NCBI GenBank assembly: GCA_021789095.1
Contig: JAJYJX010000033.1
Location: 1-16,744 of the forward strand
DNA from: a bacterium
GTDB lineage: Bacteria; JAMCPX01
Direction: 5' to 3'
DNA length: 16,744 nucleotides
Shown here one piece after another: positions 1,470 through 16,529 of this stretch. Positions within the stretch are counted from its first letter, which is position 1, and every line of letters starts with the position of its first letter. Both the position numbers and the translations under genes were made by a program. The notes below the pieces were generated by a model. That model was not told the origin of the DNA. It searched no databases and worked only from the letters and a program-made list of their open reading frames with translations.

Positions 1470-2378
1470 ATGAAGCGTCGAATAAGCGATCGGCTACTCA
1501 AGCTCATATCAATATCCTTTGCTTCTATAATATTAATACTTATCATAGGAATTGTCTATGAGTTAATAGATGGATCCATGCTGTCCATAAACAGATTTGG
1601 CTGGAGGTTTCTAGTAACTTCAACATGGGATCCGGTTAAAAATGTTTTTGGAGCCATGCCGTTTATATTCGGAACCATGGTTTCATCAATTATCGCCTTG
1701 ATCATCGCACTGCCCATAAGCATGGGTATAGCAATTTTCCTGTCCGAGCTGGCACCTCAGAAAATACGTCCCTCTGTATCACTTATGATCGAGATGCTTG
1801 CAGCAATCCCGAGTATAATTTACGGACTCTGGGGGTTGTTCGTTATGGCTCCATTCCTCCAGATCCACGTTGAGCCTCTCCTCGGTAAATACCTCTGGTT
1901 CTTGCCCCTGTTTAAAGGCGCCCCCCTCGGTATTGGCATGCTTGCGGGCGGACTGATTTTGTCCATCATGATCATACCGACCATTGCGTCTATAACAAGG
2001 GACATATTAAACACAGTACCCACACTTTACAAGGAGGCGGGATTGGCACTTGGAATGACGAGATGGGAGGTTATGTCAAAGATAGTGTTCCCGCATGCAA
2101 GGTCGGGCGTTATCGGCGCAATTATACTGGGATTCGGCAGGGCGCTTGGTGAGACAATGGCCATAACAATGGTGATAGGCAATGCACCAATGATTTCGGC
2201 ATCTCTGTTCTCGCCGTCATACACACTGGCAAGCGTCATAGCAAACGAGTTCAGCGAGGCAGTATCCCAACTCTATATATCCTCCCTTATAGAGCTTGCC
2301 CTGCTGCTGTTCATAATATCCATGATATTCAATGCCCTTGCCAGGCTACTTGTAAGGAGGGAAAAAGTCCTCCAATGA
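1470..2378 (+). CDS. pstC: Phosphate ABC transporter permease PstC
   Basis: PstC is one of the two inner-membrane permeases of the high-affinity phosphate importer PstSCAB. The 302-residue protein is mostly hydrophobic, with about six membrane segments. It carries the permease cytoplasmic (EAA) loop EAGLALGMTRWEV near residue 188, followed by the family-typical ILGFGRALGETMAI. The ATG at 1470 gives the expected N-terminus, but no clear Shine-Dalgarno precedes it. If the -10 at 1444-1449 is real, the leader is only about a dozen bases, so initiation may be nearly leaderless. The stop overlaps the pstA start in ATGA. No phosphate-binding protein gene (pstS) lies upstream; the neighbour is the divergent rimP. 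Confidence 0.95.
   Translation: MKRRISDRLLKLISISFASIILILIIGIVYELIDGSMLSINRFGWRFLVTSTWDPVKNVFGAMPFIFGTMVSSIIALIIALPISMGIAIFLSELAPQKIRPSVSLMIEMLAAIPSIIYGLWGLFVMAPFLQIHVEPLLGKYLWFLPLFKGAPLGIGMLAGGLILSIMIIPTIASITRDILNTVPTLYKEAGLALGMTRWEVMSKIVFPHARSGVIGAIILGFGRALGETMAITMVIGNAPMISASLFSPSYTLASVIANEFSEAVSQLYISSLIELALLLFIISMIFNALARLLVRREKVLQ
2356..2373 (+). promoter_or_regulatory. Possible ribosome-binding-site-masking hairpin at the pstC/pstA junction
   Basis: GGAGG (2356-2360) is complementary to CCTCC (2369-2373) across an 8-base loop, just before the pstA ATG at 2375. Ribosomes finishing pstC would open it, a simple way to couple pstA translation to pstC. It is inside the pstC coding region, so it could be a by-product of codon choice. 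Confidence 0.3.
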
Positions 2379-3220
2379 AGTCGCTGCGATACTTTAAAAG
2401 ACGTACTATCAATAATACAATATTCTTTTTGTCATACGCCTCTGCCGTCATAGGTGTTGCCATACTTCTCCTCATCCTTCTTTACACCGTTATAAAAGGA
2501 GCATCCGCCATAAACCTTGATTTCTTTATAAAGCTCCCAAGACCGACAGGTGTTCCCGGAGGGGGCATCGCCAATGCCCTTGTAGGGACTTTCATGGTTG
2601 TCGGAATAGCTTCTGCCATAGCTATTCCGGTCGGTGTAATGGCAGGCATATATCTTTCGGAGTTCGGTAATAACAAGTTTGCGCCATTCATACGATACCT
2701 TGCAGATGTCCTTAACAGCATACCTTCGATAGTAACCGGCGTAGTGGCATATGTATTCGTTGTCCTGCCGATGCATAGGTTCTCTGCACTGGCAGGCGGC
2801 GTTGCTCTGTCAATAATGATGATCCCGATAATAACAAGAACGAGCGAGGAGCTCATAAGAATGGTCCCGGATACGATCAGAGAAGCAGCCCTTGCTCTCG
2901 GTACGCCGCAGTGGAAAGTGATTATATTTATAGTGCTGAGAACAGCGGCGGCAGGCATAGCAACCGGCGTAATGCTTGCGGTGGCAAGGGTCGGAGGAGA
3001 AACAGCCCCGCTGCTGTTCACGGCATTCAATAATTCATTTATGAGCGTCAGGCCGGATCAACCGATATCCACAATGACCGTGCTGATATACAACTATGCA
3101 TCCTCACCCTACGCAGACTGGAACGCAATGGCATGGGGTGCCGCATTTGTACTTATCGTTATTGTGCTTATCGCTAACATAGTATCAAAGATATTTACAA
3201 AAACAAAATATGCTTTATAA
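2375..3220 (+). CDS. pstA: Phosphate ABC transporter permease PstA
   Basis: PstA is the second permease of the phosphate importer and pairs with PstC in the inner membrane. The product has 281 residues, the usual size, with about six membrane segments. The EAA loop REAALALGTPQWKV lies near residue 169 and is followed by ARVGGETAPLLFTA, a PstA hallmark. The start overlaps the pstC stop by 4 bp. The nearest strong ribosome-binding sequence, GGAGG (2356-2360), is 14 bases upstream and can pair with CCTCC (2369-2373), so translation is probably coupled to pstC. Twelve bases separate the pstA stop from pstB. Confidence 0.95.
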   Translation: MKSLRYFKRRTINNTIFFLSYASAVIGVAILLLILLYTVIKGASAINLDFFIKLPRPTGVPGGGIANALVGTFMVVGIASAIAIPVGVMAGIYLSEFGNNKFAPFIRYLADVLNSIPSIVTGVVAYVFVVLPMHRFSALAGGVALSIMMIPIITRTSEELIRMVPDTIREAALALGTPQWKVIIFIVLRTAAAGIATGVMLAVARVGGETAPLLFTAFNNSFMSVRPDQPISTMTVLIYNYASSPYADWNAMAWGAAFVLIVIVLIANIVSKIFTKTKYAL

Positions 3221-3232
3221 GGTTATAACTGT

Positions 3233-3991
3233 ATGACAAAAAAGCTTATCATTGAACACCTGAATGCATGGTTCGGCTCTGTCCAGGCATTAAAGGACAT
3301 CAATCTTAACATAGAAGAAAACAGCGTAACCGCCGTCATTGGGCCGTCAGGATGCGGCAAGACGACTTTTGTAAGATGCCTGAACAGGATCCATGAGGTC
3401 GTCGACAATGCAAGGATAAGCGGAAAAGTGTTGCTCGACGGCGAAGATATCTATGCCTCTACAAGCGATCCGGTTCTTGTCAGAAGGCGTATTGGTATGG
3501 TATTCCAGAAACCAAATCCGTTCCCGACAATGAGCATATTCGACAACGTTGCCGCAGGAATCAGATTGAACGGTATAAAAAAGAAAAATGAGATTGCGGA
3601 CGCAGTTGAGAGGAGCATTAAAATGGCAGCCTTGTGGGACGAGGTCAAGGACAAACTTTATAAATCGGCAACAGCCCTGTCCGGAGGGCAGCAGCAAAGG
3701 CTGTGTATAGCGAGAACAATAGCGGTAGAACCAGAGGTTATCCTCATGGACGAGCCTGCGTCAGCACTTGATCCCATATCAACCGCACACATTGAAGAAC
3801 TTATGCAGCAGATAAAGGACAAGTATACCATCGTTATCGTTACACACAATATGCAGCAGGCAGCAAGGGTGTCGGATTATACGGGGTTTTTCCTGCTCGG
3901 CGAACTCATAGAGTTCAGTAAAACACCCGATATGTTTACAAATCCAGGGGATAAACGTACAGAGGATTATATAACCGGAAGATTCGGTTAA
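3233..3991 (+). CDS. pstB: Phosphate ABC transporter ATP-binding protein PstB
   Basis: PstB is the cytoplasmic ATPase that powers phosphate import through PstCA. The 252-residue protein has a full set of ABC motifs: Walker A GPSGCGKT (37-44), Q-loop FQKPNPFP (Q92, the PstB-type Q-loop), signature LSGGQQQR (149-156), Walker B ILMDEP (170-175) and switch histidine H205 in VTHNMQQA. The family-typical tail [11 protein letters not shown] is intact. It is third in the pst operon. A 114-base gap with inverted repeats separates it from phoU. Confidence 0.97.
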
Positions 3992-4092
3992 ACCCCGTTA
4001 GAAAGGGCGTAGCTTTGAACCACACCTTTTCTTTAACGGATTTAAATGTTACCCTATCATTCCGCCATAAATGGCGGGGCTTTCTAACGAGG
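3992..4092 (+). repeat. Inverted-repeat element between pstB and phoU
   Basis: CGTTAGAAAG (3996-4005) is perfectly complementary to CTTTCTAACG (4080-4089), enclosing a second hairpin CCGCCAT/ATGGCGG (4062-4077). The left arm could instead pair with TAACGG (4034-4039). The left end AACCCCGTTA (3991-4000), directly after the pstB stop, recurs after panD (16541-16550) and in a degenerate form at 14299. This suggests a small dispersed palindromic element at gene ends. The right arm ends just before the phoU ribosome-binding site. Confidence 0.55.
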
Positions 4093-4105
4093 TAAAGGAG
4101 TGTTT

Positions 4106-4768
4106 ATGGAAAGAAAATTCGATGAAGAATTAAAGGAGCTTTCAGGAATGCTTATCAAGATGGGCAGCCTTGCACAAACAATGATCCATAAGTCCATAAA
4201 AGCACTCGTTGACAGGGACAAGGTTCTGCTCAGTGAGGTATACCAGCTTGAGGAATCAGTTAACTACATGCATGTGGAGATCGACGATTTCTGTTTAAAG
4301 CTGCTGGCTTTAAGACAGCCGCAGGCCGGAGACCTTCGCATGATAACGGCAGCCATAAAGATAAATACAGACCTTGAAAGACTGGGCGATCAGGCTGTAA
4401 ATATCGCCCAGAGGACCGAGTCACTCCTGGAAAGGCCGGCGATAAAACCACTTGTTGATATACCCAGGGAATCCACAATAGCTCAGAAAATGGTCAACGA
4501 CAGCCTTGACGCATTCATCAAAAAGGACGTAACACTTGCCGAAGACGTTCTCACAAGGGACGACACAATAGATGATATCAACAACCAGGTATTCAGAGAA
4601 CTGCTCACGTATATGATGAGCGATCATTCAACAATACCGACAGCTATCGATCTTATCTTCGTGTCAAAGAACCTTGAGCGTATTGCTGACCATGCCACGA
4701 ATATAGCCGAGGATGTCATATTTATGGCCATTGGCAAAGACATAAGACATCACCTGTCGATAAAATGA
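4106..4768 (+). CDS. phoU: Phosphate transport system regulator PhoU
   Basis: PhoU is a cytoplasmic helical regulator that links Pst transporter status to the PhoR sensor kinase and restrains phosphate uptake. The 220-residue protein shows the family's two-fold internal repeat, with metal-binding/core motifs DLERLGDQAVNIAQR (about 92-106) and NLERIADHATNIAED (about 191-205). The ATG at 4106 is chosen because AAAGGAG (4094-4100) is five bases upstream. An in-frame GTG at 4100 overlaps that Shine-Dalgarno and is unlikely. It follows pstB as usual in Pho operons, and its stop touches the region of the next gene. Confidence 0.95.
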   Translation: MERKFDEELKELSGMLIKMGSLAQTMIHKSIKALVDRDKVLLSEVYQLEESVNYMHVEIDDFCLKLLALRQPQAGDLRMITAAIKINTDLERLGDQAVNIAQRTESLLERPAIKPLVDIPRESTIAQKMVNDSLDAFIKKDVTLAEDVLTRDDTIDDINNQVFRELLTYMMSDHSTIPTAIDLIFVSKNLERIADHATNIAEDVIFMAIGKDIRHHLSIK

Positions 4769-4797
4769 TCAAATCAAACAAGGAAAGGATTCATAAA

Positions 4798-5616
4798 ATG
4801 GAACTGTTTTGTCATTCCGGGCGGCGCCTTTGTCGCAACAAAAAACCTGTTGCAAACAATACTACCTTCGCGTACAGGATTGCATTCCTGTTACTGGTAC
4901 TTCTCTACTTTATTGCCGGCTGCTCATCCGCACCTGTAAAGAAACAGCCCGGCCCCGAGGAGTATTACAAGGAAGCAATGGAAGAGATGAAGGGAGGATG
5001 GATTTTCGGCCCGGACTATGAGCAGGTCAGGGAAACGCTCAATATGATTATCGATAATTATCCATATTCAACGTATGCGCCTCTTGCCCAGCTTCGCATA
5101 GCCGATACCTATTACAAGGAGGGCCGTTATCTTGAGTCAGCAGAGGCTTACGATCACTTTGCCAAAATGTATCCAAATGACAAGAATATCCCTTATGCTG
5201 TTTTTATGGAGGGAAAATCATTCATGAAAAACCAGGAAACATGGCTCACAAAGAATATACCGTATGACACGGATCTGACGGGCATCAACAATGCATACGA
5301 TGAGTTCAGATACATCGTTAATAACTACCCGTCATCCGAATACGTAGCAGACGCAAAAAAATATGTAGTGCAATGCGAAAAGACACTTGCAGAGCATGAC
5401 ATGTACATAGCCGATTTTTATATTGACCGCGGTCATTACGAAGCAGCCATAAACAGGCTAATGGACATATATGAAAAGTACCCGAAGAGCGGGCTTGGCG
5501 ACTTGGCACTGCATAAGCTTGCAACGGTCTACAAAACAATAAACTCTGCTGACGAATACAACAAGACTATTGAACTGTTAAAAAAAGCATACCCGGACAG
5601 CAAATACAACAGGTAG
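4798..5616 (+). CDS. bamD: BamD-like outer-membrane assembly lipoprotein (TPR protein)
   Basis: BamD is a periplasm-facing lipoprotein of the BAM complex that inserts beta-barrel proteins into the outer membrane. The 272-residue product has a hydrophobic signal segment ending in a lipobox FIAGC, with the lipidated cysteine at about residue 42. TPR-like helical repeats follow, including the characteristic phrases IIDNYPYSTYAPLAQLRIADTYY and FRYIVNNYPSSEYVADA. The ATG at 4798 is preferred because AAAGGA lies about eight bases upstream. An earlier in-frame ATG at 4765 overlaps the phoU stop but has no ribosome-binding site. The n-region of the signal is unusually long even from 4798. It could be a BamD-family paralogue rather than the essential one. 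It runs with the pst/phoU genes and ends 15 bases from the convergent kinase gene, with no visible terminator. Confidence 0.85.
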   Translation: MELFCHSGRRLCRNKKPVANNTTFAYRIAFLLLVLLYFIAGCSSAPVKKQPGPEEYYKEAMEEMKGGWIFGPDYEQVRETLNMIIDNYPYSTYAPLAQLRIADTYYKEGRYLESAEAYDHFAKMYPNDKNIPYAVFMEGKSFMKNQETWLTKNIPYDTDLTGINNAYDEFRYIVNNYPSSEYVADAKKYVVQCEKTLAEHDMYIADFYIDRGHYEAAINRLMDIYEKYPKSGLGDLALHKLATVYKTINSADEYNKTIELLKKAYPDSKYNR

Positions 5617-5631
5617 CGTGGAGTGAGAGGT

Positions 5632-6540
5632 TTACAGGTCCTCGAAATGCGTGAGTTTCTTGAATGCCCTGAACCTTGTTTCTATTTCCCTGTTCGTAAG
5701 GTTTTTTATCCTGTTGAGGCTGAAGTCCTCCACATCGAACGACGCCATCACGCTGCCGAAGATTATTGCCCGCCTTATGTACCTATCGCTGATATTGTCG
5801 ACATTTGAAAGGTAACCCATAAATCCGCCTGCAAAGCTGTCCCCCGCGCCTGTGGGATCAAACACGGATTCCAGGGGATAAGCAGGCGCTGAAAATACGC
5901 TGGAATCGGAAAACATTAATGCTCCGTATTCACCCCTTTTGATTATGACAGCCTTCGGGCCGTAAGACAGAATGCATTTTGCCGCCTTTACAAGATTTGA
6001 TTCTTTGGACAGCTCTCGTGCCTCTGCCTCATTGATTGTAAGTATGTCGACATGCCCGAGCATTTCCTTCAGCTCTTTCAGTTTTCTTTCTATCCAAAAA
6101 TTCATGGTATCGCAGGCAACAAGCTTTGGCTTTTTTACCTGGCCCAGGACCTCCAGTTGGAGAACGGGGTCGATATTAGCAAGAAAAACATACGGCGTAT
6201 CCTTGTACTCTTCCGGTATCCTTGGCTTGAAGGATGCAAACACATTGAGCTGGGTATCAAGGGTATGTGCCTGGTTTAAGTCGAAATCATACCTGCCCTT
6301 CCATCGGAAGGTTTTCCCGTCTGTAACCTGAAGCCCCTTTACATCTATGCCCCTTTTCTTCAGAAACCTGACGTGCTTCTCAGGGAAATCCTGTCCGACA
6401 ACCGCTACAAGTTTTATATCCGTAAAATAGCTCGCCGAAGCTGAGAAATACGTCGCTGACCCGCCGAGGACATCCTCTACTTTGCCGAACGGCGTTTCAA
6501 CAGAGTCAAACGCCACAGAACCAATAACCAGCAAACTCAT
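5632..6540 (-). CDS. PfkB-family carbohydrate/nucleoside kinase
   Basis: A 302-residue kinase of the ribokinase/PfkB family, which transfers phosphate from ATP to sugars or nucleosides in the cytoplasm. The N-terminal substrate-binding region contains the GGSATYFS glycine motif (about 26-33). The second PfkB signature DPTGAGDSFAGGF begins at about residue 228, with its last aspartate (about D234) as the expected catalytic base. The substrate cannot be read from sequence. The ATG at 6540 is chosen because GGAGG stands six bases upstream on the minus strand; nine extra codons to 6567 are less likely. It lies 52 bases downstream of the fused multihaem cytochrome gene and is probably co-transcribed, though a functional link is not evident. 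Confidence 0.88.
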   Translation of the reverse strand: MSLLVIGSVAFDSVETPFGKVEDVLGGSATYFSASASYFTDIKLVAVVGQDFPEKHVRFLKKRGIDVKGLQVTDGKTFRWKGRYDFDLNQAHTLDTQLNVFASFKPRIPEEYKDTPYVFLANIDPVLQLEVLGQVKKPKLVACDTMNFWIERKLKELKEMLGHVDILTINEAEARELSKESNLVKAAKCILSYGPKAVIIKRGEYGALMFSDSSVFSAPAYPLESVFDPTGAGDSFAGGFMGYLSNVDNISDRYIRRAIIFGSVMASFDVEDFSLNRIKNLTNREIETRFRAFKKLTHFEDL

Positions 6541-6592: not shown

Positions 6593-8614
6593 TTATTTAT
6601 ATTGATCGGTTTCCATCTTGTCTGCGGCAGATTCTCTCTTTGGCTCCTGTTCTACAATCTCAAGAGGATGCTCCTCTTCCATTACCGTAATAGGCATCTT
6701 ACCGGTAAACATGGAGGGATTGAAGGGATACATAACCGGGTCGAATACAACCCAGTACAGATGCCACGTAAGTATGGCTAACGTTGCAAGCACAGCTTCG
6801 TAGAAATGTATCAATATGAACAGGTCGAGCCACCACTTTGGCAGCAATGCCAGTGTAACAGTAGTAAACCAGAGTGCCATTCCTGTTAGCCCCATAAGCG
6901 TATTACCCCACACAAACGCCCAGTATTCAAATTTCTCAAACGGCGTAAACCTGCCGAATGCCGGTTTTTTCTTTGTCAGTCCTATATTGTAAAGGAATAA
7001 ACCCACGGCCCCTGTTACATCATCGACCACCGGTATTAACGCCTTGAGCTGTTTTCTGCCCCGCTGCGTCACAACCATAAGGACAAATTGTAAAATAAAC
7101 ACTCCCAGAAGAACAACCCCGGAAACCCTGTGGATCCAGCCTCGGACAAGACCGTTATTTATATGGGTAAGCCATGCACTCCACCATTCATCGGGCCAGT
7201 GATGGGCAAAGCCCGTGTACGCAAGGATGAAGAATGAGAAAAGATGCACAACATGCATGGTCCTCTCTGCCGGGGTGAACCTTATATAGTCACCCTTATC
7301 TTCAAGCTTTATGAGCCTGTCTTTTTCCTTGTCAATAATCTTCCGTATAAAATCTGCGTATACAAAAATAAGTATGCCGACGATAGTGACCGATATAAGC
7401 CATATATACAACCTCTGCACTAAATCAATAATCTCTTTCCTTTTTCCCAGAGGCCCGTGGATATCTTTCAAATGCTGTATGTCCGCCTTGGTTATGCCCG
7501 GATGGCATTTACCGCACGTTGTCGGCAAGTTACAGGGACATACCGAGGATTGGGGATTCGAGGCAGGCAAAATCTTATGCGCCCTGTGACACGAAGCACA
7601 ATTGGCTGCAACGACACTGCCTCCCTTTATCATGACACCATGAAAGCTCTGCATGTATTTCGACAGGCTAACCACGGGTAATCCCAGGTTCTCGGAAATC
7701 TGTATGTTGCCGTGACAATCGGTACATGTTTTCGGAACATTCAATGGATACACGGGAGAGTTGGGGTTATCGGGTGAAAGGATCGAGTGCTCTGCATGGC
7801 AGTCTGTGCAAACAGGTGCGTTTTGTATGCCTTGCTGCAAAGCCTTCCAATGCGATGATTGGATATAATTATCGTATTCTTCCTGGTGGCACTGGGAACA
7901 GGTTTTGGGCACATTGCTCTTCGCTATGGTAGATGTTGTTATATTCGGAGGAAGTATATCGTGTACTCCATGACAATTGGAACATGTTGCTGCGGGCAAT
8001 CCGTTTTTCAAAGCAGCAGCATGAATGCTTTTTTCATACAGCTGATACGGGTTTGAAACGGGAATATTGTACTCTTTTGCCAGCTCGGCGCTGTTGTGGC
8101 ATTTACCGCATGTTGACGGGAGGTTCTGCGGATATACGGTAGAAGACGGATTCGCTGCGGTCAGTATATCATGCTTGCCGTGACAGTCCCAGCAATGCGC
8201 TGCCTTGCTTATACCGCTTGTTACCGCCTGTCCGTGTATACTTTTGGCATATTCCTTCTGAACGTCACTGTGGCATTTCTCGCAGTCCGGCGTTTTAAGC
8301 TTTTCTGGGTGCGGAAGCGATTTGATGTCCGCATGGCAATCAATGCAGGTAAGTTCTTTATGGACGGAGGACCTTAGATGATCCATATCTACATAAGAAA
8401 TCCCTTCGGTCCTGACTCCGTGGCATGTAATACAATCACCGCTGGTGAATGCCGGTTTTTTCCCTGTCAGTAAAGAAACCTCAGGGTAAACCTTCCGGGA
8501 CCTTTGTATTGTTGCAGCATGTGCAGATACGGCATGCACAGAGCCGTACAGAATACATATAACTGCGGCCGGCACAAAAAACGCTTTTACTATCCCCGAC
8601 ATTTCTTTTTCCAT
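6593..8614 (-). CDS. CbcL-like fused protein: 11-haem cytochrome c plus dihaem cytochrome b
   Basis: A 673-residue inner-membrane electron-transfer protein. A signal peptide (about 1-33, ending SAHA) is followed by eleven CXXCH haem-c sites, with first cysteines at 61, 90, 111, 141, 169, 211, 239, 269, 297, 339 and 367. A membrane helix (about 402-424), a charged linker and four further helices come next, with histidines H454/H457, H495, H603 and H618. This pattern matches FdnI/HydC-type dihaem cytochrome b. The fusion of multihaem c and such a cytochrome b is the architecture of Geobacter CbcL, a quinone-linked protein of extracellular respiration, which has nine c haems. Haem sites from 111 to 367 repeat with an exact 128-residue period. 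Extra cysteines C359 and C361 lie in a CPC pair. The gene is transcribed away from its split paralogues. Quinol oxidation with periplasmic electron export is inferred. Confidence 0.88.
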   Translation of the reverse strand: MEKEMSGIVKAFFVPAAVICILYGSVHAVSAHAATIQRSRKVYPEVSLLTGKKPAFTSGDCITCHGVRTEGISYVDMDHLRSSVHKELTCIDCHADIKSLPHPEKLKTPDCEKCHSDVQKEYAKSIHGQAVTSGISKAAHCWDCHGKHDILTAANPSSTVYPQNLPSTCGKCHNSAELAKEYNIPVSNPYQLYEKSIHAAALKNGLPAATCSNCHGVHDILPPNITTSTIAKSNVPKTCSQCHQEEYDNYIQSSHWKALQQGIQNAPVCTDCHAEHSILSPDNPNSPVYPLNVPKTCTDCHGNIQISENLGLPVVSLSKYMQSFHGVMIKGGSVVAANCASCHRAHKILPASNPQSSVCPCNLPTTCGKCHPGITKADIQHLKDIHGPLGKRKEIIDLVQRLYIWLISVTIVGILIFVYADFIRKIIDKEKDRLIKLEDKGDYIRFTPAERTMHVVHLFSFFILAYTGFAHHWPDEWWSAWLTHINNGLVRGWIHRVSGVVLLGVFILQFVLMVVTQRGRKQLKALIPVVDDVTGAVGLFLYNIGLTKKKPAFGRFTPFEKFEYWAFVWGNTLMGLTGMALWFTTVTLALLPKWWLDLFILIHFYEAVLATLAILTWHLYWVVFDPVMYPFNPSMFTGKMPITVMEEEHPLEIVEQEPKRESAADKMETDQYK

Positions 8615-8780
8615 AGTGATTGTAGTTGTATTAAGCTATGTTTTTATACATAACGTGTCAATATTTTTGGAATATATATATTAATTAATACAAAATCCTA
8701 TAAAACAGACAAAATTGATTGACGAGCAATATTTTTGGTTATAGTCAAAATATAGCGCACAAATTCCCTAATATAAAAGT
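8615..8780. promoter_or_regulatory. Divergent promoter region with a repeated 12-bp sequence
   Basis: This AT-rich gap separates the two divergent cytochrome transcription units. CAATATTTTTGG occurs twice in the same direction (8659-8670 and 8727-8738). The right copy lies between a possible plus-strand -35 TTGACG (8719-8724) and -10 TATAGT (8740-8745, spacer 15). The left copy overlaps a possible minus-strand -35 TTGACA (8661 to 8656). The right copy also forms an imperfect inverted repeat with TCAAAATAT just downstream. A shared regulator binding both copies is plausible but unproven. Confidence 0.45.
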
Positions 8781-9647
8781 ATGAAAAAGCTTTTACTGTT
8801 TATCTTTTTTGTTTGTTTGTCTTTACAGCCGGCCGCATACGGAACGAGTAGCATGAATTGTCTGCAATGCCACGGTGATCAGAACTTTTATGCCCGTTTC
8901 AAGGGTACCGTGCCGCAGGGTATGTACCTCTCCGCGGAAACATTGTCAGTGTCTGTTCACAGAGACCTGTCATGCACCCAGTGCCACACGGGTGTTACCG
9001 CGTTCCCCCATACCGCTGCGGCATCCATAACGAAAACAGACATCCCCCTGATTTGTTCAAGGTGCCATCAGGAGGTTTACAGCAAGTATATCCAGAGTAT
9101 ACACTGGAGCGCTGTAAAAAGCGGCATAAACGCCGCTCCGGTATGCACGGATTGCCATGGTGTACACGGTATACTAAAGCCGACAAACCCTGAGGCCAAG
9201 GTATTTCCTGAAAATATTCCTAAAACATGTGCAAGCTGCCACGACTCTGTAAAACTTGCACAAAAATTCAATCTTCCTTTGAACAGACTTACAACGTATG
9301 AAAACAGCTTCCACGGCATAGCGCTTAAATTCGGCGATCTCAGGGCTGCAAACTGTGCAAGCTGCCACGGCGTACACGATATCCTGCCGTCCAGTGATCC
9401 CAGATCATCCATAAACAAGGCAAACCTTCCAAAAACGTGCGGCAAATGCCACCCGAATGCAACCAAAAATTTTGTTAAAGGCAGGATCCATGTTGTTGTA
9501 AGCAAACATGGTGAAAAGGGACCATACATTGTCAGGGTATTTTATACCTGGTTTATCGGTACACTGATCTCGTTGTTCGTAGTATATGTACTATCCGATC
9601 TCCTAAATACCAGGAGAAAAAAAAGAGGAGCAGCGAGGCATGAATAA
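8781..9647 (+). CDS. Seven-haem membrane-anchored cytochrome c
   Basis: A 288-residue c-type cytochrome exported to the periplasm. It has a signal peptide (about 1-21, ending AAYG), seven CXXCH sites (first cysteines at 27, 65, 92, 122, 150, 192 and 220) and one C-terminal membrane helix (about 250-273) followed by a basic tail. Histidines in SVH, SIHW and SFHG contexts are likely distal haem ligands. The last five sites are spaced 30, 28, 42 and 28 residues, as in the fused CbcL-like protein. The C-terminal helix corresponds to the helix that joins the two domains there. It is first in a five-gene operon and overlaps the cytochrome b gene by 8 bp, so the two probably form one complex. No strong ribosome-binding site precedes the ATG. 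Confidence 0.9.
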   Translation: MKKLLLFIFFVCLSLQPAAYGTSSMNCLQCHGDQNFYARFKGTVPQGMYLSAETLSVSVHRDLSCTQCHTGVTAFPHTAAASITKTDIPLICSRCHQEVYSKYIQSIHWSAVKSGINAAPVCTDCHGVHGILKPTNPEAKVFPENIPKTCASCHDSVKLAQKFNLPLNRLTTYENSFHGIALKFGDLRAANCASCHGVHDILPSSDPRSSINKANLPKTCGKCHPNATKNFVKGRIHVVVSKHGEKGPYIVRVFYTWFIGTLISLFVVYVLSDLLNTRRKKRGAARHE

Positions 9648-10326
9648 TCGGGTACAAAGACTTTCCTTGAATCAGCGGATACAGCATATCGTCCTGTTGA
9701 CCTCCATGATTATACTGTTGCTTACAGGTCTTGTTTTGAAATTCCATAACAACGTATTCTCGATATGGCTGATAAAACGGGAAGGAGGCGTATGGGTCAG
9801 GGGATTGATCCACAGGACATTTGCAATAGTGCTCATACTTCTCGCTGTATACCACATAGTATGGGTAACATTTACGGATGAGGGCCACAGGGAACTTATG
9901 GCAATAACACCCGGACGAAGGGACTTTTCAGATTTCTTTCAAAAACTTGCCTATAACCTAGGCTTGTCAGACAACCTTCCAAGATTTGAAAAGTACGACT
10001 ATCTTCAGAAATTCCAGTATTGGGGGGTCGTTGCAGGTACAATCGTCATGATCCTCACGGGACTCATACTGTGGTTCGTGAATCAATCCATGGCTGTCCT
10101 GCCGAAATGGATCATAGACCTTACACTGATCATACACGGCTGGGACGGCGTACTGATATTCATAGTCCTGTTTTTATTCCATATGTACAACGTTCACCTC
10201 AACCCTGAGGTGTTTCCTATGAGTAAAACCTGGCTCGACGGCAAAATATCCATCGAAAGACTGAAACAGGATCACCTGCTCGAATACGAAAGACTGATAT
10301 CAGAAAAGAAAGATGGAAAAAATTAA
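9640..10326 (+). CDS. FdnI/HydC-like dihaem cytochrome b, partner of the seven-haem protein
   Basis: A 228-residue integral membrane protein with four predicted helices (about 13-33, 55-77, 127-147 and 160-183). Histidines H16, H58, H166 and H181 are placed as expected for the ligands of two b haems in formate dehydrogenase gamma/HydC-type subunits. Such subunits exchange electrons with the quinone pool. It aligns by eye with the C-terminal part of the 673-residue fused protein, including KFxYWxxxxGxxxMxxTG near 124-141 and a charged tail LLEYER. A GAGGAG site lies nine bases before the ATG. It overlaps the upstream gene by 8 bp and the downstream 9-haem gene by 14 bp, indicating translational coupling. 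Confidence 0.88.
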   Translation: MNNRVQRLSLNQRIQHIVLLTSMIILLLTGLVLKFHNNVFSIWLIKREGGVWVRGLIHRTFAIVLILLAVYHIVWVTFTDEGHRELMAITPGRRDFSDFFQKLAYNLGLSDNLPRFEKYDYLQKFQYWGVVAGTIVMILTGLILWFVNQSMAVLPKWIIDLTLIIHGWDGVLIFIVLFLFHMYNVHLNPEVFPMSKTWLDGKISIERLKQDHLLEYERLISEKKDGKN

Positions 10327-11377
10327 CTTCATTCTATTCATTGCTGCCGTGCTCCTTGTCCCTGTGAGTGCTTCAAGCCAGCCCCCGCTGTATCAGAAAT
10401 GCCTCCTGTGCCACGGGAGGCCCGGGTTTAAAAAAATGATGCCCGGAGGCAAGGTACTGGAACTTTTTGTCAATAAAACAGAACTCGAGCATTCCATTCA
10501 CTCCAAATTACACTGCACGGACTGCCATGCCGATGTCATGGAAATACCGCACTCAAAAACGCCCGGCAAGGTTAACTGCTTCAGGTGCCATTACAAGGAT
10601 AATCCCAACAATGCCAAACCCGCAAACGAGTTTTTCCACTCGATACACGGCAGGCTTTTAGAAAAAGGTGATCCCAAAGCACCGGGCTGCCAGGACTGTC
10701 ACGGGGGCCACAACGTACAAAAGGTGGATTCACCCCTGTCAACGGTCAACCATCAGAACGTCGCATTCACATGCGGCAAGTGCCACAAGCAACAGTACGA
10801 TAATTACATTGAGAGCATCCATGGAACTGCACTGCTTGACAGGCATATACAGTCAGCTCCGACTTGTACGACATGCCACGGGAAACACCTCATACTGAAG
10901 CCGGACAATCCTGAGGCGAGTATTTATCCGTTAAATGTTCTGAATGTGTGTTCAAAATGCCACGAGAACAAAGAACTGATAAAAAAATACAACATACCGG
11001 GCGGAAGGATAAGCACCTACAGGGAAAGCTTTCACGGTATCGCAGATGAATTCGGTTCTGTAAGGGCCGCCAATTGCGCAAGCTGCCACAGGGCTCACTT
11101 CATATTGCCGCAGTCCGATCCCCGTTCATCAATAAATCCAAAAAATCTTGCTAAGACATGCGGGAAGTGCCATCCGAATGCGAATGTGAATTTCACAAAA
11201 GGCAAGATACATGTAAATTATAAAAGTAAATCCACAGGCATTCTGTACTATATCGGCATGTTTTTTGAGATATTGACTTTATCTACCCTAACACTGTTGT
11301 TCATACACATACTCTTGGACCTGTTCAGGAGATACAAGGCGGGAGAGCTCAGCAAAAATCACAGACACGGAGAATAG
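10313..11377 (+). CDS. Nine-haem membrane-anchored cytochrome c
   Basis: A 354-residue exported cytochrome with a signal peptide (about 1-22), nine CXXCH sites (first cysteines at 30, 68, 89, 126, 154, 185, 213, 255 and 283) and a C-terminal membrane helix (about 310-337). Its last five sites are spaced 31, 28, 42 and 28, nearly identical to the 7- and 11-haem proteins. The last two haems carry the shared phrases RAANCASCH and SDPRSSIN. Relative to the 7-haem protein it has two extra haems near 89 and 126. It overlaps the preceding cytochrome b gene by 14 bp and is 2 bases from the next one, so it is the second c/b pair of the operon. It is most simply a duplicate of the first pair. Confidence 0.9.
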   Translation: MEKINFILFIAAVLLVPVSASSQPPLYQKCLLCHGRPGFKKMMPGGKVLELFVNKTELEHSIHSKLHCTDCHADVMEIPHSKTPGKVNCFRCHYKDNPNNAKPANEFFHSIHGRLLEKGDPKAPGCQDCHGGHNVQKVDSPLSTVNHQNVAFTCGKCHKQQYDNYIESIHGTALLDRHIQSAPTCTTCHGKHLILKPDNPEASIYPLNVLNVCSKCHENKELIKKYNIPGGRISTYRESFHGIADEFGSVRAANCASCHRAHFILPQSDPRSSINPKNLAKTCGKCHPNANVNFTKGKIHVNYKSKSTGILYYIGMFFEILTLSTLTLLFIHILLDLFRRYKAGELSKNHRHGE

Positions 11378-11379
11378 AA

Positions 11380-12303
11380 ATGCCGGACAGATACAAAGAC
11401 GCACGGGAAAAATTTATAGAAGAGCTTGAAAAGGATGTTATAGAATCACTGAACATCCGGGACGATAAAGAACTCAGTACCAGGGCAAAACAACTCTTAA
11501 GGGATGAAACAGCCAGGGACCTGAGCTTTTTCGTAGACAGCAGGTTAAAAAGGGTCGTCAGGCTGCTCAAAAGACAGCAGAGGATAAAATCAAAACTCGA
11601 GAAAAAAGAGAAATGGGAGAAAAATACGGTCCAGAGGTTCAATATATACTTCAGGATCCAGCACATCATGTTATTTACAAGCGTTGTTCTATTGATCATA
11701 ACCGGCCTGCCGCTCAAATTCCCGGGTGCAACCGCATCAAGGATACTGATGTCAATCATGGGAGGCATAACGACACAGGGCATAATCCATAGGGCAGGCG
11801 CCCTCCTTTTGATCGGGTTTTATGTATTCCATACGCTTTACACGATCTTCAACAAAGAAGGCAGAAGGGATTTCATGCTGCTGCTGCCAAGACCAAGGGA
11901 TTTTAAAGATGTGTTCCAGATGATCAAGTATTTTTTCGGCCTGTCGAAAGAAAAGCCAAGGTTCGATCGCTTCAGTTATATAGAAAAATTCGATTACTGG
12001 GCAGTTTACTGGGGCGGCATCGTGATGGTAGGTTCGGGTCTTATCATGTGGCTGCACAATCTGACACTCAGGTATCTGCCAAAATATGTTTATGATATCG
12101 CACGTGAGGCACACAGCGACGAAGCATTACTTGCCACGCTCACAATCGTTATATGGCATTTTTACAATGTACACTTCAACCCCAGCAGGTTCCCGGGATC
12201 ATTGATATGGTGGCACGGCAGGTTGACAAAGCAGGAAATGATCGAAGAACACCCTCTCGAGTACGAAAGGATTATAAAAGACAAGCAGGATTCAAATGAC
12301 TGA
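11380..12303 (+). CDS. FdnI/HydC-like dihaem cytochrome b with a charged N-terminal extension
   Basis: A 307-residue membrane protein. Residues about 88-270 form the same four-helix cytochrome b as the gene at 9640, with histidines H95, H137, H245 and H260. The first 85 residues are highly charged, probably helical and cytoplasmic, and are absent from the paralogue at 9640. A charged linker of smaller size occupies this position in the fused protein. The C-terminal tail contains EEHPLEYER, shared with both other cytochrome b modules. GGAG lies eight bases before the ATG. It is probably the quinone-interacting subunit for the 9-haem protein directly upstream, and it overlaps the downstream multihaem gene by 8 bp. 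Confidence 0.87.
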   Translation: MPDRYKDAREKFIEELEKDVIESLNIRDDKELSTRAKQLLRDETARDLSFFVDSRLKRVVRLLKRQQRIKSKLEKKEKWEKNTVQRFNIYFRIQHIMLFTSVVLLIITGLPLKFPGATASRILMSIMGGITTQGIIHRAGALLLIGFYVFHTLYTIFNKEGRRDFMLLLPRPRDFKDVFQMIKYFFGLSKEKPRFDRFSYIEKFDYWAVYWGGIVMVGSGLIMWLHNLTLRYLPKYVYDIAREAHSDEALLATLTIVIWHFYNVHFNPSRFPGSLIWWHGRLTKQEMIEEHPLEYERIIKDKQDSND

Positions 12304-14299
12304 CAGGTTCTTTAAATTTTTAAAAAGGCACCGGATTACCGCAGTCATAACAGGTATTGTTATTATGGTATGGCTTTTGCCGAACACAATCTTTCTTGCA
12401 TTATCAGGCTCGTCAAAAACATGTGCATCATGCCATATCATGAAACCCTCTATAGATGAATGGGGGACATCGGTACACAGGGAGGTAAACTGCACAACTT
12501 GCCATAACATTGGATTCAATTATTTTACAAGGGTTGAATTCGAAACATTGACCGGCATGTATAATCCCCAGCCTGTTGCAGTGGTAAGCGACAGCGCATG
12601 TCTAAAATGCCATTCCCTGTCTGACATCAGTAAACCCGGGCTTTATAAAAACAGGGTGTATTTCGATCATTCAAAGCATGTCGGGAAAAGTGTAAGGGAA
12701 ATGATGCTGTCATGTGAAACGTGTCATCCTTCTGTCACCCACGGTTCAACACTCAAGATGGTTGATGAAGACGCATGCATATCATGTCATTTCATAGGTG
12801 CTCCAAGGGGTGAGGCGATAACCGGATGTCCTTCATGCCACGGCAGTCCTACAAAAACCGTCGATTTTAACGGCATGAGTTTTAACCATAAATCTTACCT
12901 CACAAAAGGTATGCAGTGTAACCAGTGTCACCTGGACGTCATAAGTGGACAGGGCGATGTGCCGCGCGACAGGTGTCACAAATGCCATGAAGACAGGTCA
13001 TACAAATACAGCAACCCTGTGTTTGTACACAACACGCACGTAACACATGAACACCTCTCCTGCGATAAATGCCATACCCCCATGTACCACGGAGAGATAC
13101 ACATGATTCAGGCACTGGAAAGCAGGTGCACAGACTGTCATAAAGACAGGCATAACTACCAGAGGGAAATGTACATGGGGATCGGTGCTCACAATACAGT
13201 TAATATGCCTGATGCAATGTTCTCGATACAGGTAAGCTGCGAGGGCTGCCATCCGGACAGCCTTTCAATGACATCGGGCGGTACAAGACCTACAAAGGCT
13301 GAGAGCTTGCGGCAGACTGCGCGTGCGTGCGTGGAGTGCCACGGCAATCCCTATGGCCTGCTCATGTATAACTGGATAGCCGTCGGCAACAGCATGCTCA
13401 GCTATGTTTCATCGGTCATAAACAGGTCAAACGCTGCAATCAGCAAGGCCGACATCAGCCGGAATAAAAAATCGCAGGCGCAAAAACTCCTGGGCGATGC
13501 CATGTTTAACAGAAGGTTTGTTGCTTTATCGCGTCCTTCACATAACATACGATATTCTCAACAGATATTGATGAATTCTTTAAACCTTGTCGATAAAGCC
13601 ACAAACATCGCAGGCACTGTTAAACTTACCGATAACAAGCCCCTGTCCCTTCAGAGCGCCGGTGCTTCCTGTGCCGTGTTATGCCACGGCACCCTCGGTA
13701 TGCCGAAGTCCGTAAGGTTTGAAACCCTTGGTGTCGACTTCCCGCATGACTTCCACCAGAATCTAGGGATGGACTGCGCAGGGTGCCATCCTACAGAGCA
13801 CTCAATGGCAATGAACATAAAAGTCGACACGTGTGCAAACTGCCACCACGAGAATAAATCCACGCCAAACTGCGTGCTCTGCCACAGTGCTTCAGCGTCC
13901 CTTTACAGCGGTAATGTTCCATTTTCTGACATACCGCATACACCAAATGCCATGTCCGGCAGCGTAGGATGCTCGGATTGTCATGCACACATAAAGCATG
14001 GATTAACCTATAAAAGTGTAAGGGGAAGATGTATAGAGTGCCATGTTACGGCGTACGGCTCACTGCTCGATACATGGAACAATATGTATGTAAAGAAATA
14101 TGAGCAGGCCGAATTACTGCTCAAAAACACCTCGATAGGGCTTGAAGGCATGGACATTAATACGCAGCAGTACAAGAAGAAAAAAGCAAGGTATGATGAT
14201 GCAGGCGCAAAGCTGTCCTTCGTGGAAAAGGCAAACGGTCTGCATAATCTCCTGGTAACAGAAAAAATACTCGACAGTGTTATAAAGGAGCTGAAGTAA
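12296..14299 (+). CDS. Large multihaem cytochrome c (17 CXXCH plus one CX3CH) with NapC/NrfH-like N-terminus
   Basis: A 667-residue protein anchored by one N-terminal helix (about 14-36). A first haem region CASCHIMKPSIDEW with a downstream SVH is typical of NapC/NirT/NrfH quinol dehydrogenases. CXXCH first cysteines are at 43, 66, 102, 140, 161, 178, 208, 227, 256, 278, 315, 345, 494, 513, 526, 559 and 579. An additional CAVLCH (C459) has three residues between the cysteines. Two helical stretches without haems (about 350-440 and 583-667) each follow a C-V/I-ECH-xxx-YG-xLL motif and contain a later HN, pointing to internal duplication. It is last in the cytochrome operon and overlaps the preceding cytochrome b gene by 8 bp. 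It may accept electrons from the c/b pairs or directly from quinol. The acceptor is unknown. Confidence 0.85.
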   Translation: MTDRFFKFLKRHRITAVITGIVIMVWLLPNTIFLALSGSSKTCASCHIMKPSIDEWGTSVHREVNCTTCHNIGFNYFTRVEFETLTGMYNPQPVAVVSDSACLKCHSLSDISKPGLYKNRVYFDHSKHVGKSVREMMLSCETCHPSVTHGSTLKMVDEDACISCHFIGAPRGEAITGCPSCHGSPTKTVDFNGMSFNHKSYLTKGMQCNQCHLDVISGQGDVPRDRCHKCHEDRSYKYSNPVFVHNTHVTHEHLSCDKCHTPMYHGEIHMIQALESRCTDCHKDRHNYQREMYMGIGAHNTVNMPDAMFSIQVSCEGCHPDSLSMTSGGTRPTKAESLRQTARACVECHGNPYGLLMYNWIAVGNSMLSYVSSVINRSNAAISKADISRNKKSQAQKLLGDAMFNRRFVALSRPSHNIRYSQQILMNSLNLVDKATNIAGTVKLTDNKPLSLQSAGASCAVLCHGTLGMPKSVRFETLGVDFPHDFHQNLGMDCAGCHPTEHSMAMNIKVDTCANCHHENKSTPNCVLCHSASASLYSGNVPFSDIPHTPNAMSGSVGCSDCHAHIKHGLTYKSVRGRCIECHVTAYGSLLDTWNNMYVKKYEQAELLLKNTSIGLEGMDINTQQYKKKKARYDDAGAKLSFVEKANGLHNLLVTEKILDSVIKELK

Positions 14300-14464: not shown

Positions 14465-15271
14465 ATGGAAAGAAAAAAGGTAACAATACCAAACATACTA
14501 AAGCTTTATGAGGCGGGTGAGCGCATCACGATGCTCACTGCGTATGATTATCCTTCTGCTGCAATAGCTGATCAGGCAGGCATTGATATCATACTTGTAG
14601 GTGATTCGCTCGGCATGGTGATAAACGGTTACAAAAATACCCTGCCTGTAACAGTTGAAGAAATAATCTATCACACGAAGGCCGTTGCAAGAGGAACTTC
14701 TTACAGCCTTATTGTTGCCGATATGCCCTTCCTTTCGTACCAAGCAGGGATGCACGACGCCCTGTACAACGCGGGAAGACTTATAAAGGAAGGCGGTGCA
14801 GAGGCTGTCAAAATAGAAGGCGGCAGGAATATCACGGACACAATAAAGTCTATTGTCAGGGTAGATATACCTGTAATGGGACACATAGGCTTGACACCCC
14901 AGTCCATACACAGAATGGGAGGATACAAGGTGCAGGGCAAAGATGAAAAAAGCCATAATGCACTGATAGAAGATGCCCGTGCCCTTGAGGATGCCGGCAC
15001 ATTTGCCATTGTACTGGAAGGGCTGCCCGAACAACTTGCAAAAGAGATTACATCAAAACTGCACGTACCTACCATCGGAATCGGTGCAGGCAGGGAAGTA
15101 AACGGCCAGGTCCTTGTATTCCATGACCTTCTGGGACTCGGCGGCAATATACAGCCGACCTTTGTAAAACAGTATGCCCATCTCAAGGAAACAGCCGTCA
15201 GTGCAATTGAACAGTACATAAAAGAGGTTAAAGCAGGTGTGTTCCCGGGACCCGAACACACGTACAAATAA
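14465..15271 (+). CDS. panB: 3-methyl-2-oxobutanoate hydroxymethyltransferase PanB
   Basis: PanB makes ketopantoate from 2-oxoisovalerate and methylene-tetrahydrofolate, the first step of pantothenate synthesis, in the cytoplasm. The 268-residue protein has the full length of the family. It contains the conserved LTAYDYP (24-30) and metal-binding VGDSLGMV (D47), and D86 in VADMPF. Further conserved sites are VKIEGG (K116, E118), HIGLTPQS (140-147) and catalytic-region E185 in LEGLP. The N-terminus from the ATG at 14465 matches known PanB proteins, so this start is sound although it directly follows the terminator T-run. It is followed 3 bases later by panC. Confidence 0.97.
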   Translation: MERKKVTIPNILKLYEAGERITMLTAYDYPSAAIADQAGIDIILVGDSLGMVINGYKNTLPVTVEEIIYHTKAVARGTSYSLIVADMPFLSYQAGMHDALYNAGRLIKEGGAEAVKIEGGRNITDTIKSIVRVDIPVMGHIGLTPQSIHRMGGYKVQGKDEKSHNALIEDARALEDAGTFAIVLEGLPEQLAKEITSKLHVPTIGIGAGREVNGQVLVFHDLLGLGGNIQPTFVKQYAHLKETAVSAIEQYIKEVKAGVFPGPEHTYK

Positions 15272-15274
15272 GCC

Positions 15275-16120
15275 ATGAAGATCGTAACATCTGTACATGA
15301 AATGCGGGACCTTTCAATGAAGGAAAGGTCGAAAAACAAAACAATAGCCCTTGTTCCCACAATGGGCTATTTGCACGAAGGACATCTGAGCCTCTTGAAG
15401 GAGGGCAGACAGAGAGGCGACATGCTTGTGATGAGCTTGTTTGTAAACCCCATGCAGTTCGGACCAAAAGAAGATCTTGCAAAATACCCCAGGGATTTTG
15501 AGAGGGACAAAAAAATTGCCGAAAGGGCCGGCACGGACGTGATCTTTTGCCCGGACTCCGGTCAGATGTATCCGGGGCCGTTTAAAACAGCCGTAGAAGT
15601 TACGGAGCTGTCAGGCGTATTGTGCGGTAAAACAAGGCCGGGGCATTTTAAAGGCGTTACAACCGTCGTCATGAAATTATTCAACATAGTACTGCCGCAT
15701 GTTGCACTATTCGGAGAGAAAGATTTCCAGCAGCTCGTCATTATAAGACAAATGGTCAAGGATTTGAATATACCTGTCGAGATTATCGGCATGCCTATAA
15801 TAAGGGAACCCGACGGCCTTGCAAGGAGTTCAAGGAATATCTACCTGTCGGCTGATGAAAGACGAAGCGCTTTATCCATATCAAGGGGTTTATCAAAAGC
15901 AATGGATACCTTTAAAACAGGGAACAGAAACAGCACAGAACTTATAAGCATAGTGAAAAACGAGATAAAATCATCGGGCTTAAAAGAAGACTATGTCGAA
16001 GTTATCGATGAATGCACTCTCGAGCCAGCTTCAGCTACTGCAAATAATGCACGTATCGTTGTTGCCGCCTATGCAGGCAGTACAAGGCTTATAGACAATG
16101 TATCTTTGGAAAAAGAATAA
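15275..16120 (+). CDS. panC: Pantoate--beta-alanine ligase PanC
   Basis: PanC joins pantoate and beta-alanine using ATP to form pantothenate. The 281-residue protein carries the nucleotidyltransferase motif PTMGYLHEGHLSL (28-40, with H34 and H37 as the HxGH pair). It also has FVNPMQFGPKEDLAKYPR (56-73), FGEKDFQQL (146-154) and the KMSKS-like ARSSRNIYLS (183-192). Its start is 3 bases after the panB stop with no obvious Shine-Dalgarno, so it is probably translated by coupling to panB. It is the middle gene of panBCD. Confidence 0.97.
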   Translation: MKIVTSVHEMRDLSMKERSKNKTIALVPTMGYLHEGHLSLLKEGRQRGDMLVMSLFVNPMQFGPKEDLAKYPRDFERDKKIAERAGTDVIFCPDSGQMYPGPFKTAVEVTELSGVLCGKTRPGHFKGVTTVVMKLFNIVLPHVALFGEKDFQQLVIIRQMVKDLNIPVEIIGMPIIREPDGLARSSRNIYLSADERRSALSISRGLSKAMDTFKTGNRNSTELISIVKNEIKSSGLKEDYVEVIDECTLEPASATANNARIVVAAYAGSTRLIDNVSLEKE

Positions 16121-16145
16121 AATATGAGAATAAACGGAGGACATG

Positions 16146-16529
16146 ATGGAAAGAATGATGTTAAAATCCAAAATCCACAGGGCCGTGGTGACGCAGGCAG
16201 ATCTCGAATATGAGGGAAGCATACTGATCGACGAGGAATTGATGGAACTCACCGACATAAAGGAGTACGAACTGGTAAGGATCTGGGATGTCAGCAACGG
16301 TAACAGACTGGAGACCTACGCTATAAAAGGGGAAAGAGGTTCAAAGGTTATTTGTGTAAACGGAGCCGCCGCACACCTTATAAGGGAATCCGATATTGTT
16401 ATAATTGCAAGCTTTGTAAGCATGCCCGAAGAAGAAATAACACCCGGATATGCTCCGAAAATACTTATTATGGAAGGCAGAAACAATATCAAGGAAATGA
16501 AAAATATCCCTGCCCGGGCAAGAGCATAA
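16146..16529 (+). CDS. panD: Aspartate 1-decarboxylase PanD (proenzyme)
   Basis: PanD makes beta-alanine from aspartate, supplying PanC. It is a self-cleaving pyruvoyl enzyme, and the cleavage site YEG-S is present. Starting at the ATG at 16146 (127 residues) puts the new N-terminal serine at position 25, the same number as in E. coli PanD. It also places R54, T57, Y58 and N72-G73 at their usual positions. GGAGG (16136-16140) is five bases before this ATG; the adjacent ATG at 16143 would be only two bases away and is less likely. It is 25 bases after panC and ends the operon. Confidence 0.96.

Follow-up and report, generated by a model that had tools for sequence, protein, structure and literature searches.

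We analysed a 16,744-nucleotide stretch of bacterial DNA (GTDB lineage JAMCPX01; GenBank assembly GCA_021789095.1, contig JAJYJX010000033.1; hereafter the window) that encodes three units of one design, in which a multihaem cytochrome c is joined to a four-helix cytochrome b. One unit is a single fused protein (F) and two are gene pairs (c1-b1 and c2-b2); the gene of an 18-haem cytochrome (c18) follows the second pair. Judging from sequence comparisons, the three units are ancient paralogues and not the product of local fission, and the cassette that they form is real and conserved, widespread, and mostly undescribed. In the literature searched, which lacked most subscription journals, we found no description of three ancient c/b paralogues (one fused), of repeated fusion switching at one junction, or of the recurrence of such a set across many phyla.

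6593..8614, minus strand: F, fused multihaem cytochrome c/cytochrome b, 673 amino acids; 11 CXXCH motifs; PF14522, PF14537 and PF01292 above cut-off
7445..8614, minus strand: periplasmic 11-haem domain of F with N-terminal signal/anchor, residues 1-390; CXXCH motifs at 61-367
7319..7444, minus strand: joining helix of F, residues 391-432, predicted to be continuous and membrane-spanning (DSSP on the AlphaFold2 model; hydropathy 2.41 at 402-420)
6650..7282, minus strand: FdnI-type dihaem cytochrome b domain of F, residues 445-655; ligands H454, H495, H603, H618
8615..8780, no strand: divergent intergenic region between F and c1, 166 bases (from the sequence)
8781..9647, plus strand: c1, 7-haem cytochrome c; C-terminal helix at residues 253-271
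9640..10326, plus strand: b1, FdnI-type cytochrome b; H16, H58, H166, H181; PF01292 at 59.7 bits
10313..11377, plus strand: c2, 9-haem cytochrome c; C-terminal helix at residues 320-338
11380..12303, plus strand: b2, FdnI-type cytochrome b; H95, H137, H245, H260; PF01292 at 48.5 bits
11380..11619, plus strand: charged N-terminal extension specific to b2, residues 1-80, predicted cytoplasmic (alignment)
12296..14299, plus strand: c18, N-terminally anchored cytochrome of 667 amino acids; 17 CXXCH motifs and one CX3CH

The locus is divergent, with F on the minus strand and five packed genes (c1, b1, c2, b2, c18) on the plus strand, where neighbours overlap by 8, 14 and 8 bases and a single gap measures 2 bases. 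The five reading frames listed in the initial annotation were all recovered where it had placed them, but the extent that it gave to the unit (6593-12303) is too short, as the overlapping 18-haem gene also belongs to it. A promoter scan of the 166-base intergenic region returned 2 signals versus 1.8 expected from shuffles, that is, no excess.

Homology of the three units

Profile matches and pairwise comparisons agree with the proposal that the three units are homologous and share an identical domain order. The fused b domain matches b1 at E=5e-43 and b2 at E=3e-41, and b1 matches b2 at E=4e-67; on the cytochrome c side, c1 matches c2 at E=2e-75 and the fused c domain at E=1e-65. Values of this order exclude chance similarity. 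In the split pairs the gene boundary falls ~16-17 residues past the C-terminal helix of the c subunit. A cytoplasmic linker, which had been claimed for all units, is present in F (~25 residues) and in b2 (~80 residues) but absent from b1.

The b domains score above the PF01292 cut-off of 30.1 bits (F 44.7, b1 59.7, b2 48.5), while their scores against TIGR01583, formate dehydrogenase gamma (42.7, 45.3 and 31.2 bits), lie below the equivalog cut-off of 115.85. Profile searches connect both the F b domain (E=3.4e-14) and a joint b1 and b2 profile (E=1.2e-5) to 1kqf_C, the FdnI chain of Escherichia coli. The four haem ligands, at FdnI positions 18, 57, 155 and 169, are His in nearly all of ~170 aligned sequences (b1, b2, F and outgroups), one gap aside. 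The expectation of His at matching positions therefore holds for these four ligands but not for H72 and H186 (b1 numbering), two further His that are invariant in b1, b2 and other pairs. H186 is missing from almost all F sequences, and the window F also lacks H72, with Gln in its place. Both residues are absent from FdnI and probably lie near the cytoplasmic side; a role in quinone or proton handling is possible. An HPLEYER-like tail is present as described, but E. coli FdnI aligns there too (KHHPRWYREIEK), so the tail is a family trait that does not set this locus apart.

An AlphaFold2 model of F, built from 24 aligned sequences, has a mean predicted local distance difference test (pLDDT) score of 79 and a predicted template modelling (pTM) score of 0.55; a pTM this low does not fix how the two domains lie relative to each other. 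The modelled b domain matches FdnI (1KQF chain C) in Foldseek (E 1.7e-4, TMt 0.78) and in VIA (Z 17.1, root mean square deviation 2.9 over 209 residues). The haem domain, modelled with pLDDT mostly 80-94 across residues 61-300, gave no convincing single relative in Foldseek/VIA (MtrA 8.9, HAO family 9.1).

Conservation and spread of the cassette

We examined nine genomes, which make up the window's family and its whole phylum as sampled. Relatives of b2 are present in 9/9, and the divergent layout in at least seven (the window, L026, L027, L030 and L031, together with L034 and L035, where short contigs end inside b1). In G005 the pieces of the cassette are split over two contigs, and in G006 F is relocated elsewhere. 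F orthologues are 65-72% identical in seven family relatives, and the corresponding ranges are 67-74% for c1, 78-84% for c2 and 69-72% for b2. The c1 protein of G006 (L032, 10774-12000; 408 amino acids) has 11 haems versus 7 in other family members; thus, the haem number of c1 grows or shrinks inside one family.

Relatives beyond the phylum come from a contig scan limited to the best 80 of >570 matches, which is not a random sample. By tree or context labels, F, b1 and b2 stand in one locus at least 23 times. The search for this fused-plus-split layout, suggested by the initial annotation, thus found it recurring within the phylum in divergent form and, mostly on one strand, in 18 loci beyond it: in Deltaproteobacteria, Acidobacteriota/Terriglobia, Kryptonia, Bacteroidetes, Ignavibacteria, Hydrothermus, Zixibacteria and an unclassified bacterium. 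Three loci (L047, L048, L057) are colinear in the order F-c1-b1-c2-b2-c16, and L085 follows the same order up to the contig end in b2. The set also varies. There is no local F in L051, L054 and L068, where F lies elsewhere in the genome; b1 is absent from L052, L058, L060, L062 and L067, with c1 retained in those checked; and c1 is absent from L064, L069, L079 and others.

Phylogeny and switching between fused and split states

The larger of the b trees, with 86 rows, recovers b1 as one clade (support 100/98). F and its split versions form another (97/83, or 100/97 after dropping two long rows), and the two are sisters (100/98). On the opposite side of the tree b2 is joined by simple c-b pairs from clostridia and by nine-haem fusions of the CbcL type. 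The b domains thus occupy three related clades and do not fall in unrelated families, the outcome named beforehand as speaking against a common module. In the c tree, where some rows labelled c1 are mislabelled duplicates of F from loci in which b1 directly follows F, c1 (99/93) and F (99/93) are sister groups (97/95) apart from c2, which is not resolved as a single clade. The grouping patterns of the c and b domains agree, and the two parts have therefore travelled together.

The fused or split state changes at least seven times on the tree. Examples are F, which occurs in split form in L105 and in loci L154, L159-L161 and L163 of the Desulfobacterota sample, and the b2-type units of L102 and L108, which are fused. 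The idea of fission or fusion at one site is thus borne out as to the site, since the junction is always the same, but a single event is not supported, given the age of the paralogues and the number of state changes. In L102 and L108 (Myxococcales; Deltaproteobacteria) a single protein has a c part closest to c2 (39-41% identical to the window c2) and a b part closest to b2 (46-47%), and a 14-haem gene follows it. These natural fusions, with the congruent c and b trees, support the view that c2 and b2 act together. A model of the L102 fusion, obtained from a three-row alignment, has a pLDDT of 38.9 and is uninformative on contacts.

Two other origins of the three units were weighed. The assembly of the window genome is fragmented, which could suggest an assembly or binning artefact; independent assemblies of nine genomes, however, repeat the cassette and refute this. 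A recent local tandem duplication or fission is ruled out by the identity of paralogues within the locus, only 33-41% over the b domains versus 66-84% for orthologues, and by the cross-phylum clade that each paralogue has of its own. We regard artefact and recent duplication, taken together, as having a negligible chance of being right. It is also improbable, though less extremely so, that F is an orthologue of Geobacter CbcL and that the two pairs arose as broken-up copies of it. F shares the CbcL architecture and junction, and CbcL homologues span 3 to 23 c-haems (PMC6295460), but F groups with b1 (100/98), whereas the nine-haem CbcL-type fusions, which are unnamed sequences, group with b2 and the simple pairs. 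Holding F with the CbcL-like clade, a group picked after the tree was seen, costs 29.8 log units, and the approximately unbiased (AU) test gives a marginal result (P-value 0.046). A version of the test with F and the nine-haem fusions as one clade gave P-value 2e-6 but is biased, as it omits the split sequences nested in F; hence we rely on the former value.

Comparison with described systems

In E. coli formate dehydrogenase the electron subunit FdnH places a C-terminal membrane helix beside a four-helix b subunit. FdnH-FdnI (1KQF) shares with the window the b fold and the four haem ligands; in the window, however, a multihaem cytochrome takes the place of the iron-sulfur protein as periplasmic partner, and there is no catalytic formate subunit. 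CbcL/MtrH/MtoC fusions are defined by a multihaem c domain (3-23 CX2CH) N-terminal to a HydC/FdnI-like membrane domain, and are reported from 15 phyla with 3-23 haems (PMC6295460). F has this architecture, with 11 CXXCH motifs before an FdnI fold, and like these proteins it fuses an N-terminal multihaem c domain to a HydC/FdnI-like dihaem b domain (PMC6295460, PMC9129911). As a CbcL-type protein, F qualifies by architecture but differs from the nine-haem CbcL-type fusions of the Desulfobacterota sample: its haems number 11 instead of nine, it sits with b1 in the tree (a separation that is marginal by the AU test), and it is kept together with two split pairs and an 18-haem protein. The split pairs resemble Geobacter CbcBA, an inner-membrane quinone/cytochrome c oxidoreductase with separate c and b genes (PMC10553843, PMC12307469), from which the window is set apart, by description, by two non-identical tandem pairs and a fused paralogue. 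Mco of ANME archaea also pairs a hydrogenase-type cytochrome b gene with a gene for a 7-11-haem cytochrome; compared by description, it differs in its VhtC-type b subunit, its archaeal origin and its single pair (PMC9012536).

Cluster 1 of MBNT15 (Candidatus Deferrimicrobium borealis SHF-111) comprises four multihaem c genes (9-16 haems, one member with 16) and two four-helix cytochromes b, and was proposed to provide a quinone-to-periplasm route for Fe(III) reduction (PMC9386147). Compared by description, within the accessible part of that report, this cluster has the same kinds and number of genes as the window, the colinear F-c1-b1-c2-b2-c16 loci L047 and L048 fit it, and it is apparently the same cassette. 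It comes from one genome, and the accessible part describes no c gene as a c-b fusion and does not describe the units as paralogues; in the window, F is divergent and c1 has 7 haems versus 9-16. The layout that the initial annotation took to be undescribed has thus apparently been reported as a gene set, but our literature search turned up neither the three-paralogue structure nor an account of how widely it occurs.

Probable function and alternatives

FdnI exchanges electrons with menaquinone on the cytoplasmic side. The FdnI fold and ligands of the cassette, along with the futalosine menaquinone family PF02621 in the window genome, indicate a similar exchange here. We consider it likely that the products of the locus make up a module of the inner membrane, a menaquinol/periplasmic cytochrome c oxidoreductase, which probably stands at the start of extracellular electron transfer; we infer its quinone use, the direction of electrons, a physical complex and the tuning of the units. 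In each unit a dihaem cytochrome b of the FdnI type would carry a quinone site on its cytoplasmic side, and one transmembrane helix would keep the periplasmic haem chain beside the b domain, as in FdnH beside FdnI. Menaquinol electrons would pass from haem bC to bP and from there along the c-haems, to reach the 18-haem protein and carriers in the periplasm or outer membrane. The joint retention of three old paralogues in many uncultured phyla points to a division of labour, in which the units would probably be tuned to different potentials or partners.

Gene neighbours fit with extracellular electron transfer. In L052 (Zixibacteria/Calditrichota) the module is preceded by a GSU2203-family decahaem cytochrome (339 bits, cut-off 325) and a GSU2204-family protein (561 bits, cut-off 350), an arrangement partly visible upstream of the module in L062, and Rieske/cytochrome b and NrfD genes lie near the module in L095 (Pfam) and L105 (by eye). 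In Geobacter, the related systems CbcL and CbcBA have been linked with extracellular respiration at low potential (PMC9129911, PMC12307469). Other observations weigh against such a role. In the window genome (203 contigs, 92% complete) the conduit family PF11854 is absent, the GSU2203 family stays below cut-off, and a Kryptonia barrel query, itself without a positive control, gave no match; PF11854 is a weak test for an outer-membrane conduit, because it also fails to match the GSU2204 protein of L052. Moreover, the pairing of c1 with b1 is not obligatory, since some lineages keep b1 without c1 and others c1 without b1.

We think it rather unlikely that electrons run the other way, from extracellular or syntrophic donors through the c-haems to menaquinone on the cytoplasmic side, building membrane potential as FdnI does. 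FdnI itself reduces menaquinone. The topology would favour energy gain inward: outward flow from a cytoplasmic-side quinol costs membrane potential and inward flow builds it. In addition, Fe(II) oxidisers have relatives of CbcL/MtoC (PMC6295460), and CbcBA was proposed to work in reverse in Seep-SRB2 (PMC10553843). However, no sequence feature distinguishes the two directions, as was said of CbcL/MtoC (PMC6295460); the window genome also has Rieske/cytochrome b and molybdoenzyme-type genes. Somewhat less likely again is a module serving a soluble periplasmic reductase or dehydrogenase, with the 18-haem protein as periplasmic capacitor or bridge. In its favour, neither the searches of the window genome nor the window itself yielded a conduit, but the module adjoins conduit-type genes in Zixibacteria/Calditrichota, no catalytic subunit is encoded beside it in the window, and the MBNT15 authors likewise gave a cluster of this kind a role in Fe(III) reduction (PMC9386147).

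The potential window and the energy yield of extracellular respiration are set by quinone-to-cytochrome oxidoreductases, of which few (CymA, CbcL, ImcH, CbcBA) are well studied. For lineages that have no cultured models, the cassette offers a candidate marker of extracellular electron transfer. A more speculative and on balance doubtful reading of the locus is that c1, b1, c2, b2 and c18 form one stable membrane complex, in which two non-equivalent dihaem b subunits with two cytoplasmic-side quinone sites would feed a common haem wire, F being a separate or alternative third entry. If true, this five-protein complex would be a respiratory complex of a so far uncharacterised type.

The 18-haem protein and neighbouring genes

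Counterparts of c18 follow b2 in other phyla, with 12-18 CXXCH motifs and up to 32. In L070 (Armatimonadota) cytochromes with 20 and 32 CXXCH (4790-6142 and 10680-12746) stand in the c18 position, and two c-b2-type units share one locus. The CX3CH motif of c18, CAVLCH at 13670-13687, is kept in most counterparts across phyla, and Kryptonia-type proteins have CX2CH there. Against PF03264 (NapC/NirT/NrfH) c18 scores 23.0 bits, below the cut-off of 24.1. The first-haem motif CXXCHxM of these quinol dehydrogenases is present in the window (CASCHIM), but CHYE replaces it in L064, L065 and L079, and CHYI in L054. With one N-terminal helix, 17 CXXCH and one CX3CH, c18 does not fit the definition of ImcH, which asks for three membrane helices at the N terminus and for 6-10 haem motifs (PMC6295460).

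In Zixibacteria/Calditrichota an NrfH-like cytochrome also lies upstream of the module (L052, 2703-7509; L062, 1-2814), and the GSU2204 reading frame is interrupted as a selenocysteine UGA would give, which makes it a candidate (seleno)protein. Elsewhere in the window genome, locus L125 (G000:C33) holds a cluster of Rieske/cytochrome b type with two pentahaem cytochromes, adjoining another Rieske-like operon (by eye). The flanks of the cassette in the window look housekeeping: pst-type phosphate transport genes (by eye) and a YfiO-like lipoprotein (profile) lie upstream at 1470-5616, and panB/panC/panD-like genes (by eye) downstream at 14465-16529.

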